A DNA stretch of 64,000 nucleotides from Nitrospira sp. CR1.1 (GTDB lineage Bacteria; Nitrospirota; Nitrospiria; Nitrospirales; Nitrospiraceae), in contig WIAF01000003.1 in NCBI GenBank assembly GCA_014055465.1, positions 186,001-250,000 of the forward strand. Direction: 5' to 3'. Positions 4,753-32,108 of this stretch are shown here, piece after piece (position 1 is the first letter of the stretch; the number at the start of each line of letters is the position of its first letter). The notes beneath the pieces were generated by a model that was given only the letters and a program-made list of their open reading frames with translations, had not been told where the DNA came from and made no database searches. The position numbers and the translations under genes are program-made.

Positions 4753-7700
4753 TTAACGAGGCAATTGCAACGTAATGGTCGTCCCGTGATCTTCCAGCGT
4801 GTCAATCTGCACATCTCCTCCGAGAAGCCCGGCGCGCTCCCGCATTCCCAGCAAACCGAACGATCGAGCGTCAGCAAGCCGATCCTGGGGAATTCCTCGT
4901 CCATTGTCGCGGACCTGCAGCAACAATCCCACACCCTGGTCTTCCAACTGCACATGGACTTCCGTGGCCTGGGCATGGCGGGTGACATTTGTCAGCGCCT
5001 CCTGACAAATGCGAAACACGGCAGTGGCCTGTTCCGGGTCTACCCGCAAATCCTCATGACTGACCGCACAGTGACACGGAATCCCGGTACGGCGCTGAAA
5101 ATCACGGCATTGCCATTCGATCGCCGCGACCAGGCCCAGATCATCCAACACACCCGGGCGTAATTCCGCGACGATCCGCTGCACGGACGTGATGGTGCTG
5201 TCGACCTGCTCCTTCATGCCGCGAATCTTGTCATCCACCTTGGCGCGGTCGCGCGGAATCAGCCGCTCCCCCAACAGACCACCCAATCGAGACAGATCGA
5301 TTTTCAGGCAGGTCAAGCCGACTCCCAGTTCGTCGTGCAACTCTCGCGCAATGCGCCCGCGCTCTTCTTCACGAATCCCCTCCATCCGTCCTGAAAGTTT
5401 GCGCAGCCGGCGCAAGGAATCCTGCAACTGCGCCTCGGCGCGCTTTCGATCCGTCGTATCTTTGAACACGACGACGGCGCCGGCAATGTCACCCCGTTCC
5501 GAAATGGGCGTACTCACATATTCCACGGGAAAACTCGTCCCATCCTTGCGCCAGAATGCGCTGTCCACCTGCTCCCGGATTTCACCGTCCCGAATCGTGT
5601 CCGCAATCGGGCAACGCAGTTCTCCGAACGGTTGTTCGCACAGATCAGGAGGGAAGACCAGGGGATGCATCGATCGGCCGATCATCGCCTCCGCCTCCCA
5701 CCCGAACATGTTGGCCGCCGCCGGATTCACGAACGTCAAACGTCCCCCGCGATCGACGCCGTAGATGCCTTCTCCTGCAGAGTTCAGAATCACTTGATTG
5801 TGATAATGCAGGCGATCCAGTTGTTCCTCCGCCGACCGCCGCTCGCTGATGTCCCGCATAATGATGGTGAAAAAGAGGTCCGATCTCCCCTTCCAGGACG
5901 TCACGCTCAACTCCAAGGGAAACTCGTCCCCTTGTTTCCGGCGACCGATGAGTTCCAGAGTTTTACTCGTGAATTGCACACGTTCGAGCACGCGGACCCG
6001 TTGAACGTTGCGTTCCAGCTCCTCGTGATACTGTTCCGGAATAATCATCGTCACAGGCTGTCCGATAATGTCTTCGGCCGAATACCCGAAGGTCGCCTCC
6101 GCGCCCTTGTTCCAAAAAGCCACCTTCATCAGGGCGTTGACGAGCACAATGGCGTCCTTGGTCGATTGCACGATCGACCGCAACCGCTCCTCGCTGATCC
6201 GAAGCGCATCTTCGATCCGTCGGCGCTCGGTCACATCGCGGATGATCCCCAATACGCCGACCACGCGCCCTTGGCGCATTTGCGGGGTGCCGACAAATTC
6301 TCCGGTCACATACCCGCCTTGTTTCGTGCTGATTTGCATCGAACAGGTCAGCGGGGTGCCGCGCTCAAGGATCGCCTGCAGGACATCCTGACAAAAGCCT
6401 GCATCGTCAGGATGCAGCAGAGCCGCAAGCGGTTCTCCGATCCATTGCGAACGGGACCAGTTCGTCACCGTTTCAAAGGCCTGGTTGAGGGAGGTCATGG
6501 TCGTGTCGGCCGAGAGCGTGAAGATGATATCCCGCGCCCCTTCCACCAGACTCCGGAATCGATATTCCGATTCAAACAGCGCATCCTGCGCCCGTTTGAG
6601 CCAGGTGATATCATGAAACACCATCACGGTTCCGCTTAGCAGTCCCGCCTCGTCCCTGATCGGTCTGGCATTAATACTGACCCAGCGCCCCGGAACATCG
6701 TGCGAAGCCCGCATGTAGACTTCCAGCCAATCGACCTTTTCCCCTCTCAACGCGCGCGCCAGCGGCCACTCTTCGCGCTGGAATCGCGTCGCCGTGTCGC
6801 CATGAAAAAACTCGTACCGATCAACCCAGTCGATCGGCGGGATGTGTCCAGGAGAAAAACCCACAATACTTTCGATGGCAGGATTGGCCATCACCAGCCG
6901 TCCCATCGCATCGGTCACGACGACTCCGTCTCCCATGCTTCGCAACACGGAGTTGACGATTCTGGTCTGCTCAGTTAAGGCCTGCTCGGACCGTTCCAGC
7001 GCTTCAGCCCGATCCCTAAGCGCCCGTTCCGCCTGCGCAATCCCCGCCGATTGTGTCCTGACGGCATCCTCATAGACGCGGAGCAACTGTTCCGCCACGG
7101 CTAAGCGGGATTGATGCCGAAGACTTGTCGCCGGCTCAGACAGTGATCCAGCGTGATGAATCACAGCATTGTCCGGGGAAGAGGCCTCATCAAATGCCAG
7201 GAGGGAAGTTTTCAAGCTGAGGGCGAGTGATTTGCACAGCGCCGCGGTCTCACGCGGAACCGGCGTCCTGGAAAACAATATCACGGCGAACAAATCGCGC
7301 GACGGCAGGATCCCGCCGAAACACAACACTGACTTGACCCCGTACTTCCCGACAAACCCGTCCTGCACCGGCACATAGGGACTGCCCTTCGCATCGGGCA
7401 CATAAAATACGTTGTAGGTCTTCTCTTCCAAATCGACCAGCCATTCACCATCCGGTCTCACAGCGAACTCCGTGGACACGCCAAACTGATGCAGGAGTTG
7501 TGAAAACATCGGGAACTGTTTCACGAAATCGGCGCTGACCATCGGAATAACTCGGTACCGGTGAGAACGATCGACCCGATTCCAATCCGGCTCCGCGCCG
7601 GTTGAGGCGACGAGTGTGAAACACCTCAAGTCGGGAAACGGAGCGATCCCTCCGAGCTGCTCCCGGACTAACTGCTGACGTTCGGAATCCAAGCGGCTGT

Positions 7701-27626: not shown

Positions 27627-28385
27627 TTACCCGCGCAGCTCACTCCCCAGCCCGTGCATCGGTTGGAGCCGTGTCTGTGCGGCACCGGCCGGCTTCCGTT
27701 CGAGTCCCATCCAAAACCCTTCGAGATAGTCGAGAACTGCGTTCACGCCGAGACGAAAATCGTCTTTCTCTGTGTCCGACATGGGCGCATGGGAGACACC
27801 ACTCGCGCCATCGATGGCGCCGACCGCCTGCTCCATCGCCCGTTCGTGCTCAGACTCAAGTTGGCGATGAAATACAAAATACGTCATGTCCATCGCGGCA
27901 TACCGCGTGGCCTGCAAGTGCATCAGCCCGGGAATCAGACGATCCCACATGGTGATGGCCATGTGTTCCAGGCCAAAGGACGCTCCCAACGCCATCGCAT
28001 GGTTGCCGCTGCCGTAGAGACTTTCCATCCCTTCGATATAGGCTCTGGTGGAGGGCCGCATCGGCGTGGTCATCGCGCCGTGAATGTCGATCCCCAGCGA
28101 TCGGAGAAAGTTCCGATACAACAACTCATGCCGGTTCTTGACGGTACCGTCGCCGAGTTCGGAATAGAGCACTTTCGTCAATTCATCTGCCACGGCTTCA
28201 TCTTCGGTGTTGACCAATTGGGCGGCGAGGATGCGCGGGAAGAACCGCGAGAAATTATAAAATTCGACGGCGAACTCACGAAATTCTTTGTCGGTCACAT
28301 CGCCGGCGAAAAAACGGTCGAGGTAGGAATTATTGATCGCGCCATGTCGAAGCACGTCCGAGCGCACTTGTTCGTAAAACGACAT
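27627..28385 (-). CDS. Heme-oxygenase-like diiron protein (PqqC/CADD-like)
   Basis: A 252-aa all-helical protein of the iron-containing redox enzyme (HDO) family. The start at 28385 has GGAGG six bases upstream. Metal-binding-type residues appear in the expected helices: NTEDEAVADEL, NRHELLYRNFL, then the pattern YFVFHRQLESEHERAM typical of the final helix of CADD/UndA-like enzymes. Such proteins use O2 at a diiron site for diverse reactions (UndA makes 1-alkenes from fatty acids; CADD makes p-aminobenzoate). It is the first gene of the beta-oxidation operon, next to an acyl-CoA ligase, so a fatty-acid or amino-acid derived substrate is possible. The exact reaction is unknown. Confidence 0.75.
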   Translation of the reverse strand: MSFYEQVRSDVLRHGAINNSYLDRFFAGDVTDKEFREFAVEFYNFSRFFPRILAAQLVNTEDEAVADELTKVLYSELGDGTVKNRHELLYRNFLRSLGIDIHGAMTTPMRPSTRAYIEGMESLYGSGNHAMALGASFGLEHMAITMWDRLIPGLMHLQATRYAAMDMTYFVFHRQLESEHERAMEQAVGAIDGASGVSHAPMSDTEKDDFRLGVNAVLDYLEGFWMGLERKPAGAAQTRLQPMHGLGSELRG

Positions 28386-28440
28386 CGTGCACCTCCGCCG
28401 CCGTCCCGGGACGCCTGTCGGTCCTCTGCTCCTGCGCATA

Positions 28441-28455
28441 TGTGTCGGCGACACA
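28441..28455. promoter_or_regulatory. 15-bp palindrome, candidate operator of the divergent operons
   Basis: TGTGTCGGCGACACA is a perfect 7-1-7 inverted repeat in the shared control region. It lies about 55-70 bases upstream of the leftward operon's first start codon and downstream of that operon's predicted -10 element, a good position for a repressor. Confidence 0.5.
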
Positions 28456-28517: not shown

Positions 28518-28596
28518 GTGGTCATGCGTGACCGAACGATGCACTGCGGCGCGCACAATCGGCTGAGGTTCCCTATCACGCCTGGGAGGAACCGCC

Positions 28597-29196
28597 ATGA
28601 AAGAAGCCATCGGGGTTGATCACGTCACGTTATGCGTGAAGAATCTGGCGGCCACCAAATATCTGTTCACCCATGTTCTGGGATTCGAGGTCATCTGGTC
28701 CGCCCAGGACGTGGGAAGCGACAAGTCCAGCATGGACACCGTCGTCGTCCAACGGGGCGAGGCCAAAATCGCCTTGATGCAGGGCAGAAATAAGGAACGC
28801 AAGTCTCAGATCTGTGAATTCGTCGAGACCTATGGCGAAGGCGTGCAGCATGTGGCCCTTGAGGTCGACGATATCGAAGCGGTGTGCCGCGAATGGGAAA
28901 CCCGCGGGGTCCGGTTCAGCGGAGACATCAAGGATGGGCGGGACGGTTTCGGCCCACTCCGGCAGCGGTTCACGTACCCGCTGTTCCCCGGCTGCGGATT
29001 GTTTCTCGAACTGACGCAGCGGCAGCATGGCCATGAAGAATCGAAGACGTTCGTCCGCGCCACGGTGGAATCTCTGTATCGCGACATCGAACGGGATCAG
29101 ATCAAAGGGGTGACCCGGACGATCATCGACTATGAGACGCTGCCGCTTCCCTTCGAGGAAGAAGCGGCAGCGGCGTCCCTTCGCCATGCATCGTAA
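28597..29196 (+). CDS. Single-module 4-hydroxyphenylpyruvate dioxygenase-like enzyme
   Basis: A 199-aa vicinal-oxygen-chelate protein matching only the catalytic C-terminal half of HPPD, which is normally about 350 aa with two modules. The three iron ligands are visible: His9 (VDHVTLCV), His85 (GVQHVAL) and Glu138 (LFLELTQR). The HPPD-type closing helix is also there (TFVRATVESLYRDIERDQIK). HPPD turns 4-hydroxyphenylpyruvate into homogentisate; homogentisate dioxygenase and fumarylacetoacetase follow directly, which supports that reaction. GGGAGG lies eight bases before the ATG. It opens the rightward operon. Hydroxymandelate synthase or another VOC dioxygenase is the main alternative. Confidence 0.75.
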   Translation: MKEAIGVDHVTLCVKNLAATKYLFTHVLGFEVIWSAQDVGSDKSSMDTVVVQRGEAKIALMQGRNKERKSQICEFVETYGEGVQHVALEVDDIEAVCREWETRGVRFSGDIKDGRDGFGPLRQRFTYPLFPGCGLFLELTQRQHGHEESKTFVRATVESLYRDIERDQIKGVTRTIIDYETLPLPFEEEAAAASLRHAS

Positions 29197-29233: not shown

Positions 29234-30349
29234 ATGTATCTGGTCAAAAAAGGCGCCGCTCCCGATCAGGCCCATGTGGGAATTCCCGAGGGCCTGCATG
29301 AAGAGGAGCACGGTCGCCGCGGATTCAGCGGCCCCTCCTCGCACCTCTATCATCGACACCCGCCGACCGGTTGGAGCCGCATCGAAGGCCCGCTCCGGCC
29401 ACGCGCGTTCACCTGCACTGAGCTGCCGGCTCCTGATCAACGCGCTGCCGACCGGCGGCCGGTCACGATTTTGCAAAGCACGGATGCCCGCGTGTCTCTT
29501 TCACGACGCGCGGCCACGATGACGCATTTCGTGCGCAACGCCGACGGGGACGAAATCGTGTTTGTCCATAGCGGGCGCGGGACGTGGGAGACCGATTATG
29601 GCTTGCTGCGGTATGAGCCGGGCGATTATCTGGTCATTCCGAAAGGCACCACCTATCGCATCCATGTGGATCACCAGGAAGAGCCAGGCCTGTTTCTGAT
29701 CATTGAGACACCGGATCCTGTGGAGGTGCCCGACCGAGGGCCTCTCGGCCGGCATGCCTTGTTCGACCCGGGGGTCATCGTGGCGCCGGAACCGGCCCCG
29801 CCCCCGGATGATGCGAACAGCCGGCGGGAATGGGAAGTTCGAATCACACGGGAGCATGAGGATACGCGCGTCTATTATCCCTTCTACCCCATGGATACCG
29901 CCGGCTGGAAGGGCGACCTGTGGGTGGCCAAGTTGAACGTGCGCGATTTTCGTCCCGTGACCAGTCCTCGCTACCATCTCCCGCCCAGCGTGCATGCCAC
30001 GTTTCAAGCCGGAGGCCTCCTCATCTCAACCTTTGCGCCGAGACCGCTGGAGACCGATCCGGACGCCTTACGCGTCCCCTTCTATCACCGCAATATGGAC
30101 TACGACGAAGTCCTGTTCTACCACCGGGGAGAGTTCTTCAGCCGGGCCGGCATTCAGGCCGGCATGTTGACGCTGCACCCTCAGGGCATTCACCACGGGC
30201 CACAACCGCAGGCGATCGCCGCCAGCAAAGGAAAGGACCAGACCAATGAAGTCGCCGTGATGATCGAATCGCGCCACGCATTTCAGGTCATGCCGGAATT
30301 GGAAACCGTTGAACTGAAGGATTACGCGATGAGTTGGAGCCGGCCATGA
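29234..30349 (+). CDS. hmgA: Homogentisate 1,2-dioxygenase
   Basis: A 371-aa cupin-fold iron dioxygenase opening the homogentisate ring to maleylacetoacetate. C-terminal metal-site motifs are visible: FYHRNMDYDEVLFYHRGEFF and LTLHPQGIHHGPQP. It is shorter than the roughly 430-aa human and Pseudomonas enzymes but in line with the shorter bacterial branch. AGGAGG precedes the ATG at 29234. Its stop overlaps the FAH start (ATGA), so the two are translationally coupled. A maleylacetoacetate isomerase gene, needed between the two reactions, is not present in the window. Confidence 0.88.
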   Translation: MYLVKKGAAPDQAHVGIPEGLHEEEHGRRGFSGPSSHLYHRHPPTGWSRIEGPLRPRAFTCTELPAPDQRAADRRPVTILQSTDARVSLSRRAATMTHFVRNADGDEIVFVHSGRGTWETDYGLLRYEPGDYLVIPKGTTYRIHVDHQEEPGLFLIIETPDPVEVPDRGPLGRHALFDPGVIVAPEPAPPPDDANSRREWEVRITREHEDTRVYYPFYPMDTAGWKGDLWVAKLNVRDFRPVTSPRYHLPPSVHATFQAGGLLISTFAPRPLETDPDALRVPFYHRNMDYDEVLFYHRGEFFSRAGIQAGMLTLHPQGIHHGPQPQAIAASKGKDQTNEVAVMIESRHAFQVMPELETVELKDYAMSWSRP

Positions 30350-31350
30350 AACTTGTCAGTTTCCAGGTCCGTACACCGGTCGGGACTTTCACCAGAATCG
30401 GCGCGCTCCAGGCTGGATCGATCATCGATCTCAACATGGCCTATGCCCGGCTACTCGCCGGCCAGGGGGAGCCGCGCCCGCGCCGTCTCGCCGATGCTCA
30501 CGTCCCCGCCACGATGTTGGAGTTTTTAGAAGGCGGCCCTTCCGCAATGGCTGCAGCGAGGCGCGCGCTCGCCTTCGTGACAGAAGGCAATGCATCACTG
30601 ACGGGCCCGGCGGATGAAACGATCGTCTATGATGCGACCGACGTTCACCTGACGGCGCCGCTTCCAAATCCGGCTTCGCTCCGGGATTTTATCGCCTTTG
30701 AGGCGCACATTGCCGCCACGTCGAAACGGCGGGGCCAACCGATTCCTCCTGAATGGTACAAGGCGCCGGTGTACTACAAGGGAAATCATCGGACCATTGT
30801 CGGGCCGGATCATGCGCTTCCATGGCCATTAAACACCCAGAAGCTGGATTACGAATTAGAGCTGGCCTGCGTCATCGGGCGCGGTGGTATTGATGTGGCG
30901 GAACGCGACGCAACGGAGTACATCGCCGGTTATACGATCATGAATGACTTCAGCGCGAGAGATATCCAGTTTCAGGAAATGGCCTGCCGGCTCGGTCCGG
31001 CGAAGGGAAAAGATTTCGCCACCGCCATCGGGCCCTGCATCGTCACACCCGATGAGATCCCGGACCTCGCCTCGCTGCACATGATTGCGCGCATCAACGG
31101 GGAAGTCTGGTCGCAGGGACGCTTCGGGTCGATCCATTGGTCGTTCCCTCAAATGATCGAGCATGTGTCGCGGGGAGAAGCCATTTATCCCGGCGACCTG
31201 CTGGGCTCGGGGACGGTCGGCGGCGGCTGCGGCCTGGAACTCGACCGATACTTACAGCCGGGAGACCGCATCGAATTGGAAATCCAACCGATCGGCATTC
31301 TCAGAACCATGATCGCCGGCCCCAACAAGACCGCGCGCGAGGAGGCATGA
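30346..31350 (+). CDS. Fumarylacetoacetate hydrolase family protein
   Basis: A 334-aa FAH-fold hydrolase. The start at 30346 overlaps the HGD stop as ATGA. The family's metal and catalytic positions appear in LDYELELACVIGRGG, MNDFSARDIQFQEM, GKDFATAIGPCIV and LLGSGTVGGGCGLEL. It should split fumarylacetoacetate into fumarate and acetoacetate, the last step of tyrosine breakdown, as expected next to HPPD and HGD. FAH-family members also act on other 2,4-dioxo acids, so the exact substrate rests on context. Its stop overlaps the next start (ATGA). Confidence 0.88.
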   Translation: MKLVSFQVRTPVGTFTRIGALQAGSIIDLNMAYARLLAGQGEPRPRRLADAHVPATMLEFLEGGPSAMAAARRALAFVTEGNASLTGPADETIVYDATDVHLTAPLPNPASLRDFIAFEAHIAATSKRRGQPIPPEWYKAPVYYKGNHRTIVGPDHALPWPLNTQKLDYELELACVIGRGGIDVAERDATEYIAGYTIMNDFSARDIQFQEMACRLGPAKGKDFATAIGPCIVTPDEIPDLASLHMIARINGEVWSQGRFGSIHWSFPQMIEHVSRGEAIYPGDLLGSGTVGGGCGLELDRYLQPGDRIELEIQPIGILRTMIAGPNKTAREEA

Positions 31351-32108
31351 TGCCAGCGGCCACAAAATCTTCGGCAGCCGCCGCCACAGAGCTGGTGGAA
31401 CGGCAACGGGCAATCTATACAGGGTCGGAGCTCGACATGAGGTTGAAACACCTCATTCGCGACACTCCGCGCGCCACCCTTTCGTCATGGGATATTCAGC
31501 GTCTGCTGCGCGCTTCGCGCGCGGTCTATTTCGACAGCCATGTGGAGGTGGTGTCGGGCCACCATACGGAGGTCTACCTGCGATTCGAGTCCATCGCGCG
31601 ATGCCCGGACCTCGTGACGATTATCGCGTTGAACATGGCGGAGTGGATCCTCCAGACGTTTCAGCAGGACCCGCCGGCCGGCATCATCACCACCTCGTCC
31701 GGCGCGCGCCTGCTTGCGGAACGAACCTGCGAGATCCTGGCGCCGCACCTTTCCTTGCGCGCCCTGTTGACTCCCTTCAATCACGACACAGGCAAAATCG
31801 GCACCGAGATCGTCAACGGGACGGTTGATCCAGGAGAGCGGTTTCTCGCGTTGAACGACATCACCACACGCGGCATGTGTGTCAACAAACTGGGAACGGT
31901 CATCACTGATCGCGGGGGGCGCCTTGCGGGCATGATGGTGTTTGCCAGACGAGACAGCGGCCAGTTTCCGCTCATGGATGAGCTGACGGCCACCTATCCG
32001 TTTTACTTCGGGGTGGATCTGGACATGCCGCAGTGGGAACCGGCCGATTGCCGTGCCTGCCGGGAGGGAAAACCGTTGGTGTCCTGGAGGGACCTGCCCG
32101 CGCTTTGA
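31347..32108 (+). CDS. Type I phosphoribosyltransferase-like protein
   Basis: A 253-aa protein resembling orotate phosphoribosyltransferase. It has a substrate-side beta region (VEVVSGHHTEVYLRFESIAR), GIITTSSGARLLAERTCEIL and a PRPP-loop-like stretch FLALNDITTRGMCVNKLGTV. The usual acidic pair of the PRPP loop reads Asn-Asp here, so PRPP binding may be weakened. A Cys pair (DCRACREG) sits near the C terminus. It overlaps the FAH stop by ATGA (an ATG at 31350 has the better-spaced GGAGG). Its place between tyrosine-degradation and 2-oxoacid-dehydrogenase genes is unexpected for a nucleotide enzyme; the function is unknown. Confidence 0.6.
   Translation: MMPAATKSSAAAATELVERQRAIYTGSELDMRLKHLIRDTPRATLSSWDIQRLLRASRAVYFDSHVEVVSGHHTEVYLRFESIARCPDLVTIIALNMAEWILQTFQQDPPAGIITTSSGARLLAERTCEILAPHLSLRALLTPFNHDTGKIGTEIVNGTVDPGERFLALNDITTRGMCVNKLGTVITDRGGRLAGMMVFARRDSGQFPLMDELTATYPFYFGVDLDMPQWEPADCRACREGKPLVSWRDLPAL

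Follow-up and report, generated by a model that had tools for sequence, protein, structure and literature searches.

Can the reaction of HPPD, which converts 4-hydroxyphenylpyruvate to homogentisate, be carried out by one VOC domain instead of two? Herbicides and drugs target HPPD, and no catalytic role has been reported for its N-domain (PMC6750108). Were a one-domain HPPD to occur in nature, it would provide a minimal scaffold for probing the role of that domain and would let one ask whether HPPD had a one-domain ancestor. Such an enzyme is suggested by a 199-aa open reading frame from Nitrospira, a major nitrite oxidiser, which a first-pass annotation had described as a half-size, perhaps minimal, HPPD. 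It lies in the window analyzed here, 64,000 nucleotides of contig WIAF01000003.1 from a 4.44-Mb Nitrospira genome that is 99.99% complete. The features of the locus are as follows:

27627..28454, minus strand: divergent haem-oxygenase-like iron protein (BesC/CADD-like); PF14518, 84 bits; PDB 7twa, E 6e-9
28584..28590, plus strand: ribosome-binding site GGGAGGA, 6 bases 5' of the P0001 ATG, as read from the sequence
28597..29196, plus strand: single-domain HPPD-like VOC protein, 199 aa (P0001); ATG start; Fe ligands His9, His85, and Glu138
29234..30349, plus strand: short-form homogentisate 1,2-dioxygenase (HGD), 371 aa (P0002); TIGR01015, 71.2 bits; HgmA_N and HgmA_C
30346..31350, plus strand: fumarylacetoacetate hydrolase (FAH) family protein (P0003); PF01557, 187 bits
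31347..32108, plus strand: phosphoribosyltransferase-like protein; weak pyrE match; no Pfam family; same place in relatives

P0001 matches only the catalytic domain of HPPD

Comparison of P0001 with six relatives gives dN/dS values of 0.03-0.12, indicating purifying selection on a real gene and ruling out a chance open reading frame at 28597-29196. Near-identical genes on named contigs belong to Nitrospira metagenome-assembled genomes. All hits of a contig scan with the single P0001 sequence were close relatives, with Nitrospira in nine titles and Nitrosospira in one, and a search of viral contigs found no further relatives. An AlphaFold2 model, for which the ten closest sequences served as input, was poor (pLDDT 45).

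The best NCBIfam model for P0001 is TIGR01263 (88.1 bits, profile positions 155/156-263), with the match in relatives extending to positions 300-349 of 353. Profile positions 1-154 and 264-299 have no match in P0001 or its relatives, and a search for a separate N-domain match in the source genome and in the relatives found none. Alignment of the P0001 family to seven full-length HPPDs with hhalign (probability 99.5%, E 4e-22, 160 columns) spans HPPD residues 164-354, skipping the segment after about residue 269. Both comparisons are restricted to the C-domain, confirming the earlier observation that the protein aligns only with the catalytic half. The best solved-structure matches are also HPPDs, at E 1.3e-16 for the single sequence and 6.5e-23 for the family profile, against 1.5e-6 at best for named epimerases. 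The methylmalonyl-CoA epimerase model TIGR03081 is second best at 53.8 bits, below its cut-off of 114.95, and Pfam assigns P0001 only to general Glyoxalase/VOC families.

In addition to the N-domain, P0001 lacks a segment of ≈35 aa inside the C-domain (profile positions 264-299). This segment is present in all two-domain proteins of the alignment and is absent from the Nitrospirota single-domain proteins shown, from the NRPS-type ones, and from the f9 ones. The P0001 score lies well under the curated TIGR01263 cut-off of 277 bits, which is set for a full-length model, and a protein of 199 aa with no N-domain match has one VOC domain in place of the two that define HPPD. Because P0001 falls outside TIGR01263 on both score and domain number, we describe it as working like HPPD.

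The gene is part of a probable homogentisate operon

Immediately downstream, at 29234 and 30346, are the HGD and FAH-family genes that the first-pass annotation had reported. P0002 is a short-form HGD and scores below the TIGR01015 cut-off (71.2 of 510.75 bits). Its motifs RYHLPPS, FYHRN..DE, and HHGP align in all six HGDs compared, P0002 and five relatives; by analogy to human HGD, we take these to be the His/Glu/His iron ligands and the catalytic His region. In Vibrio, Tistrella, and Variovorax, relatives of P0002 with 44-46% identity have a full-length HPPD as neighbor. The 46% identical Vibrio protein is encoded on a plasmid, in an operon of HPPD, HGD, and FAH-family genes followed by a 222-aa protein that, judged from its first residues, we read as an isomerase. 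The same gene set makes up VC1344-VC1347 of Vibrio cholerae, a genetically demonstrated tyrosine-catabolism operon in which mutations in VC1345 produce pigment, with the role of the gene borne out by complementation (PMC3114702); this likeness is one of gene content and order. P0003, in turn, is 50% identical to the FAH that adjoins a full-length HPPD in another Nitrospirota genome, G271.

All neighborhoods inspected in full share the gene order HPPD-like, HGD, FAH, phosphoribosyltransferase-like, and dehydrogenase genes E1a, E1b, and E2 usually come next. The phosphoribosyltransferase-like gene (31347-32108) stands between FAH and dehydrogenase E1a in several relatives. Upstream, the haem-oxygenase-like gene at 27627-28454, whose homologs start near 28385, is a conserved divergent neighbor of P0001. 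In the cyanobacterium Kovacikia, a distant relative of its product is likewise encoded after HPPD-HGD (L096 5223-6146).

Phenylalanine hydroxylase and a GST-type maleylacetoacetate isomerase were sought and are absent from the Nitrospira genome, so the route is not textbook-complete. The maiA-type isomerase is likewise absent from 11 of the 12 other genomes checked, including G271. It may be that FAH accepts maleylacetoacetate itself, or that a different isomerase exists.

P0001 and HGD co-occur across Nitrospirota

The P0001 gene (E below 1e-80) is found in 52 of 395 Nitrospirota genomes, and the downstream-type HGD is found in 54, among them all 52 with P0001. The two genes share a contig in 51 of these 52, where they are adjacent, on the same strand, and separated by tens of bases to under 200; in the remaining genome (G002), each lies at the start of its own contig. 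Fisher's test for this co-occurrence gives p 3.7e-63 uncorrected for relatedness and, since related genomes are not independent, shows only that the association is tight.

Two genomes have the HGD without the P0001 gene. The contig of one (G368) ends inside HGD. The other, G271, encodes a full-length HPPD (387 aa, 253 bits) in an operon with the order HPPD-FAH-HGD. In the sole genome with an intact HGD locus and no P0001 gene, then, a full-length HPPD takes its place, and no other of the 395 genomes has an HPPD that matches TIGR01263 over its length. A full-length HPPD elsewhere in the source genome, which the first-pass annotation had named as a sign against its reading, was looked for in the 99.99% complete assembly and not found. 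P0001 would fill the homogentisate step in Nitrospira, where TIGR01263 finds no HPPD above its cut-off.

The iron site is conserved and the substrate pocket is mixed

All three proposed iron ligands hold across the family. His9 and His85 are present in 46 of 46 unique relatives and Glu138 in 45, the single exception being a Val in the fragmented genome G010 (L028). These three ligands are found across VOC enzymes, methylmalonyl-CoA epimerase among them, and so are insufficient in themselves to call P0001 an HPPD. Gln71, Gln84, Gln123, Phe125, Phe136, Phe152, Val157, and Leu160 are also invariant among the 46 relatives. The C-terminal gating helix noted earlier is borne out as well, with the region at about residues 150-169 aligning to the HPPD closing helix. 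In the Arabidopsis HPPD numbering, which we assume here together with PMC6750108, the three ligands align with His226, His308, and Glu394; Gln71, Gln84, Gln123, and Phe125 with Gln293, Gln307, Gln379, and Phe381; and Phe136, Phe152, Val157, and Leu160 with Phe392, Phe419, Phe424, and Leu427.

Within the HPPD substrate network (Ser267-Asn282-Gln307-Gln293 plus Asn423 and Phe424), P0001 keeps both glutamines and differs at the four other positions, with Thr48 for Ser267, Met61 or Gln62 for Asn282, Thr156 for Asn423, and Val157 for Phe424. Mutations in HPPD lower its efficiency about 3722-fold for Q293A, 99-fold for Q307A, 160-fold for N282A, and 12-fold for S267A (PMC6750108). The Variovorax HPPD, which scores above the TIGR01263 cut-off and lies in an HPPD-HGD-FAH operon, itself has Thr, no Asn, and Ala at three of the changed positions. 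With kept and changed residues mixed in this way, the pocket alone does not fix the product, and gene context carries the most weight.

One alternative is an enzyme of the hydroxymandelate synthase (HMS) type, which would use the same substrate and first steps and then hydroxylate the benzylic position to give 4-hydroxymandelate. Val157 and Tyr161 at the P0001 closing helix do resemble Ile355 and Tyr359 of HMS (PMC3720870), and an aliphatic residue at the Phe424 position is a mark of that enzyme. The nearest plasmid single-domain relatives, at 32-35% identity, moreover lie in peptide-synthetase clusters with aminotransferases, as would fit makers of arylglycine or mandelate. P0001, however, belongs to no mandelate or arylglycine cluster: no peptide synthetase, mandelate oxidase, or aminotransferase adjoins it, HGD and FAH stand 3' of its gene in every relative examined, and it retains the HPPD-type Gln71 where a Nonomuraea HMS-like protein has His. 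We therefore regard an HMS-type product as very unlikely.

The four altered pocket residues could instead point to a related Fe(II) 2-oxo acid dioxygenase that acts on another aromatic substrate and feeds a homogentisate-like ring cleavage, a reading with which the low score of P0002 (71 of 510 bits against TIGR01015) would agree. A short HGD is no bar to the HPPD reaction, however, given that the Variovorax short HGD (45% identical to P0002, 65 bits against TIGR01015) is preceded by an HPPD above its own cut-off, and that the Vibrio relative of P0002 lies in an operon with the tyrosine-catabolic gene order. A different substrate is accordingly improbable.

A VOC isomerase or epimerase, such as the missing maleylacetoacetate isomerase with homogentisate supplied from elsewhere, is suggested by the lack of a maiA-type gene, by the epimerases among VOC enzymes, and by the 53.8-bit epimerase match, but we give this role little credence: G271, with no maiA and a closely related FAH, dispenses with such an isomerase and carries a full-length HPPD where the P0001 gene stands, and two aligned epimerases lack the closing helix and the HPPD glutamines, apart from a GVQH motif in one.

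P0001 lies outside the two-domain HPPDs

A maximum-likelihood tree built from catalytic domains groups the two-domain HPPD and HMS proteins in one clade (98/92). The Nitrospirota single-domain proteins fall outside it, a position that is unchanged when the longest rows are left out. A topology with them nested within HPPD is weakly rejected (p-AU 0.034), although branch lengths are large and the test has limited strength; NRPS-type and Nitrospirota single-domain proteins may form a single clade (p-AU 0.13). This position makes a separate single-domain lineage likelier than a cut-down HPPD. P0001 probably represents such a lineage and is unlikely to have arisen by simple truncation of one of the HPPDs sampled. 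Of the half-size HPPD first proposed, the one-domain HPPD is well supported by context, whereas the cut-down origin is not, as the tree places P0001 outside the two-domain enzymes. Tentatively, and with the arguments close to balanced, we suggest a lineage of single-domain arylpyruvate dioxygenases that was never fused to an HPPD N-domain and that performs the HPPD reaction in Nitrospirota.

Proposed function

Homology, ligand conservation, gene context, co-occurrence with HGD, and substitution by a full-length HPPD in one genome support the HPPD reaction. On these sequence-based grounds, we consider it likely that P0001 is a one-domain enzyme that converts 4-hydroxyphenylpyruvate to homogentisate, a variant of the known HPPD kind. 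Searches of open-access literature found no report of a single-domain HPPD or a single-domain HMS. Within the VOC superfamily, P0001 would be a 2-oxo acid dioxygenase that depends on Fe(II), with substrate, product, and chemistry assigned by analogy to HPPD. His9, His85, and Glu138 would hold Fe(II), to which the 2-oxo acid would bind in bidentate fashion. O2 would then drive decarboxylation, and the resulting Fe(IV)-oxo species would hydroxylate the ring as the side chain migrates, in a pocket closed by the C-terminal helix. HGD would open the ring of the product, and FAH would hydrolyze what results. As in other one-domain VOC enzymes, P0001 is probably a homodimer. If this assignment is correct and the lineage was never fused to the N-domain, the HPPD reaction can do without that domain and the ≈35-aa segment, and the single-domain lineage may be similar to what existed before the domain duplication in HPPD.

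Comparison with known systems

The 2-oxoadipate dioxygenase HglS (DUF1338) is a VOC-fold enzyme whose central domain carries out an HPPD-like decarboxylation-hydroxylation; it differs in acting on another substrate and is described as lacking sequence homology (PMC7286885). Also widespread in the phylum is another single-domain VOC protein, about 206-213 aa long (L042, source genome C1:394000-406500, ORF 6016-6657, minus strand), which adjoins an aldehyde dehydrogenase and a saccharopine-dehydrogenase-like gene. Pfam gives it no DUF1338 match; its context makes us suspect that it is a small 2-oxoadipate dioxygenase acting in lysine breakdown. A role of this 206-aa relative as a partner subunit of P0001 is not supported, as its locus is lysine-type and on another contig, and it persists in genomes without the P0001 gene. 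Genomes from another family of the same class encode VOC proteins of 171 aa that show a QIFTKP motif and a closing helix like those of HPPD (L087 2007-2522 and L088 4554-5069); a search of these genomes for a homolog of the P0002 HGD found none.

Single-domain VOC proteins of NRPS clusters occur in Vibrio europaeus (WP_102300553.1), Rhizobium, and Bradyrhizobium, and in S. meliloti as a fusion to chorismate mutase. They share with P0001 the single domain, the HPPD-type closing helix, and the missing ≈35-aa segment, but are only 32-35% identical to it and belong to a secondary-metabolite context. HPPD/HMS-like proteins of this kind are encoded in plasmid clusters of Vibrio, Rhizobium, Bradyrhizobium, Paraburkholderia, and S. 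meliloti (L050 7692-8474, L051 7917-8459, L052 7917-8462, and L053 and L054 7914-8462), with prephenate dehydrogenase following the S. meliloti fusion. They are possibly one-domain makers of mandelate or arylglycine.

HMS belongs to the same superfamily branch and has, like P0001, an aliphatic residue and a Tyr at the closing helix. Unlike P0001, it is a two-domain protein with a different gene context and a different residue at the Gln71 position. HPPD itself shares with P0001 the catalytic-domain fold (by profile match), the His-His-Glu iron site, the closing helix, the HGD/FAH operon, and the equivalents of Gln293, Gln307, Gln379, and Phe381. P0001 differs from HPPD in its lack of the N-domain and of the segment at profile positions 264-299, in the altered Ser, Asn, Asn, and Phe of the substrate network, and in a C-terminal tail of about 30 aa.
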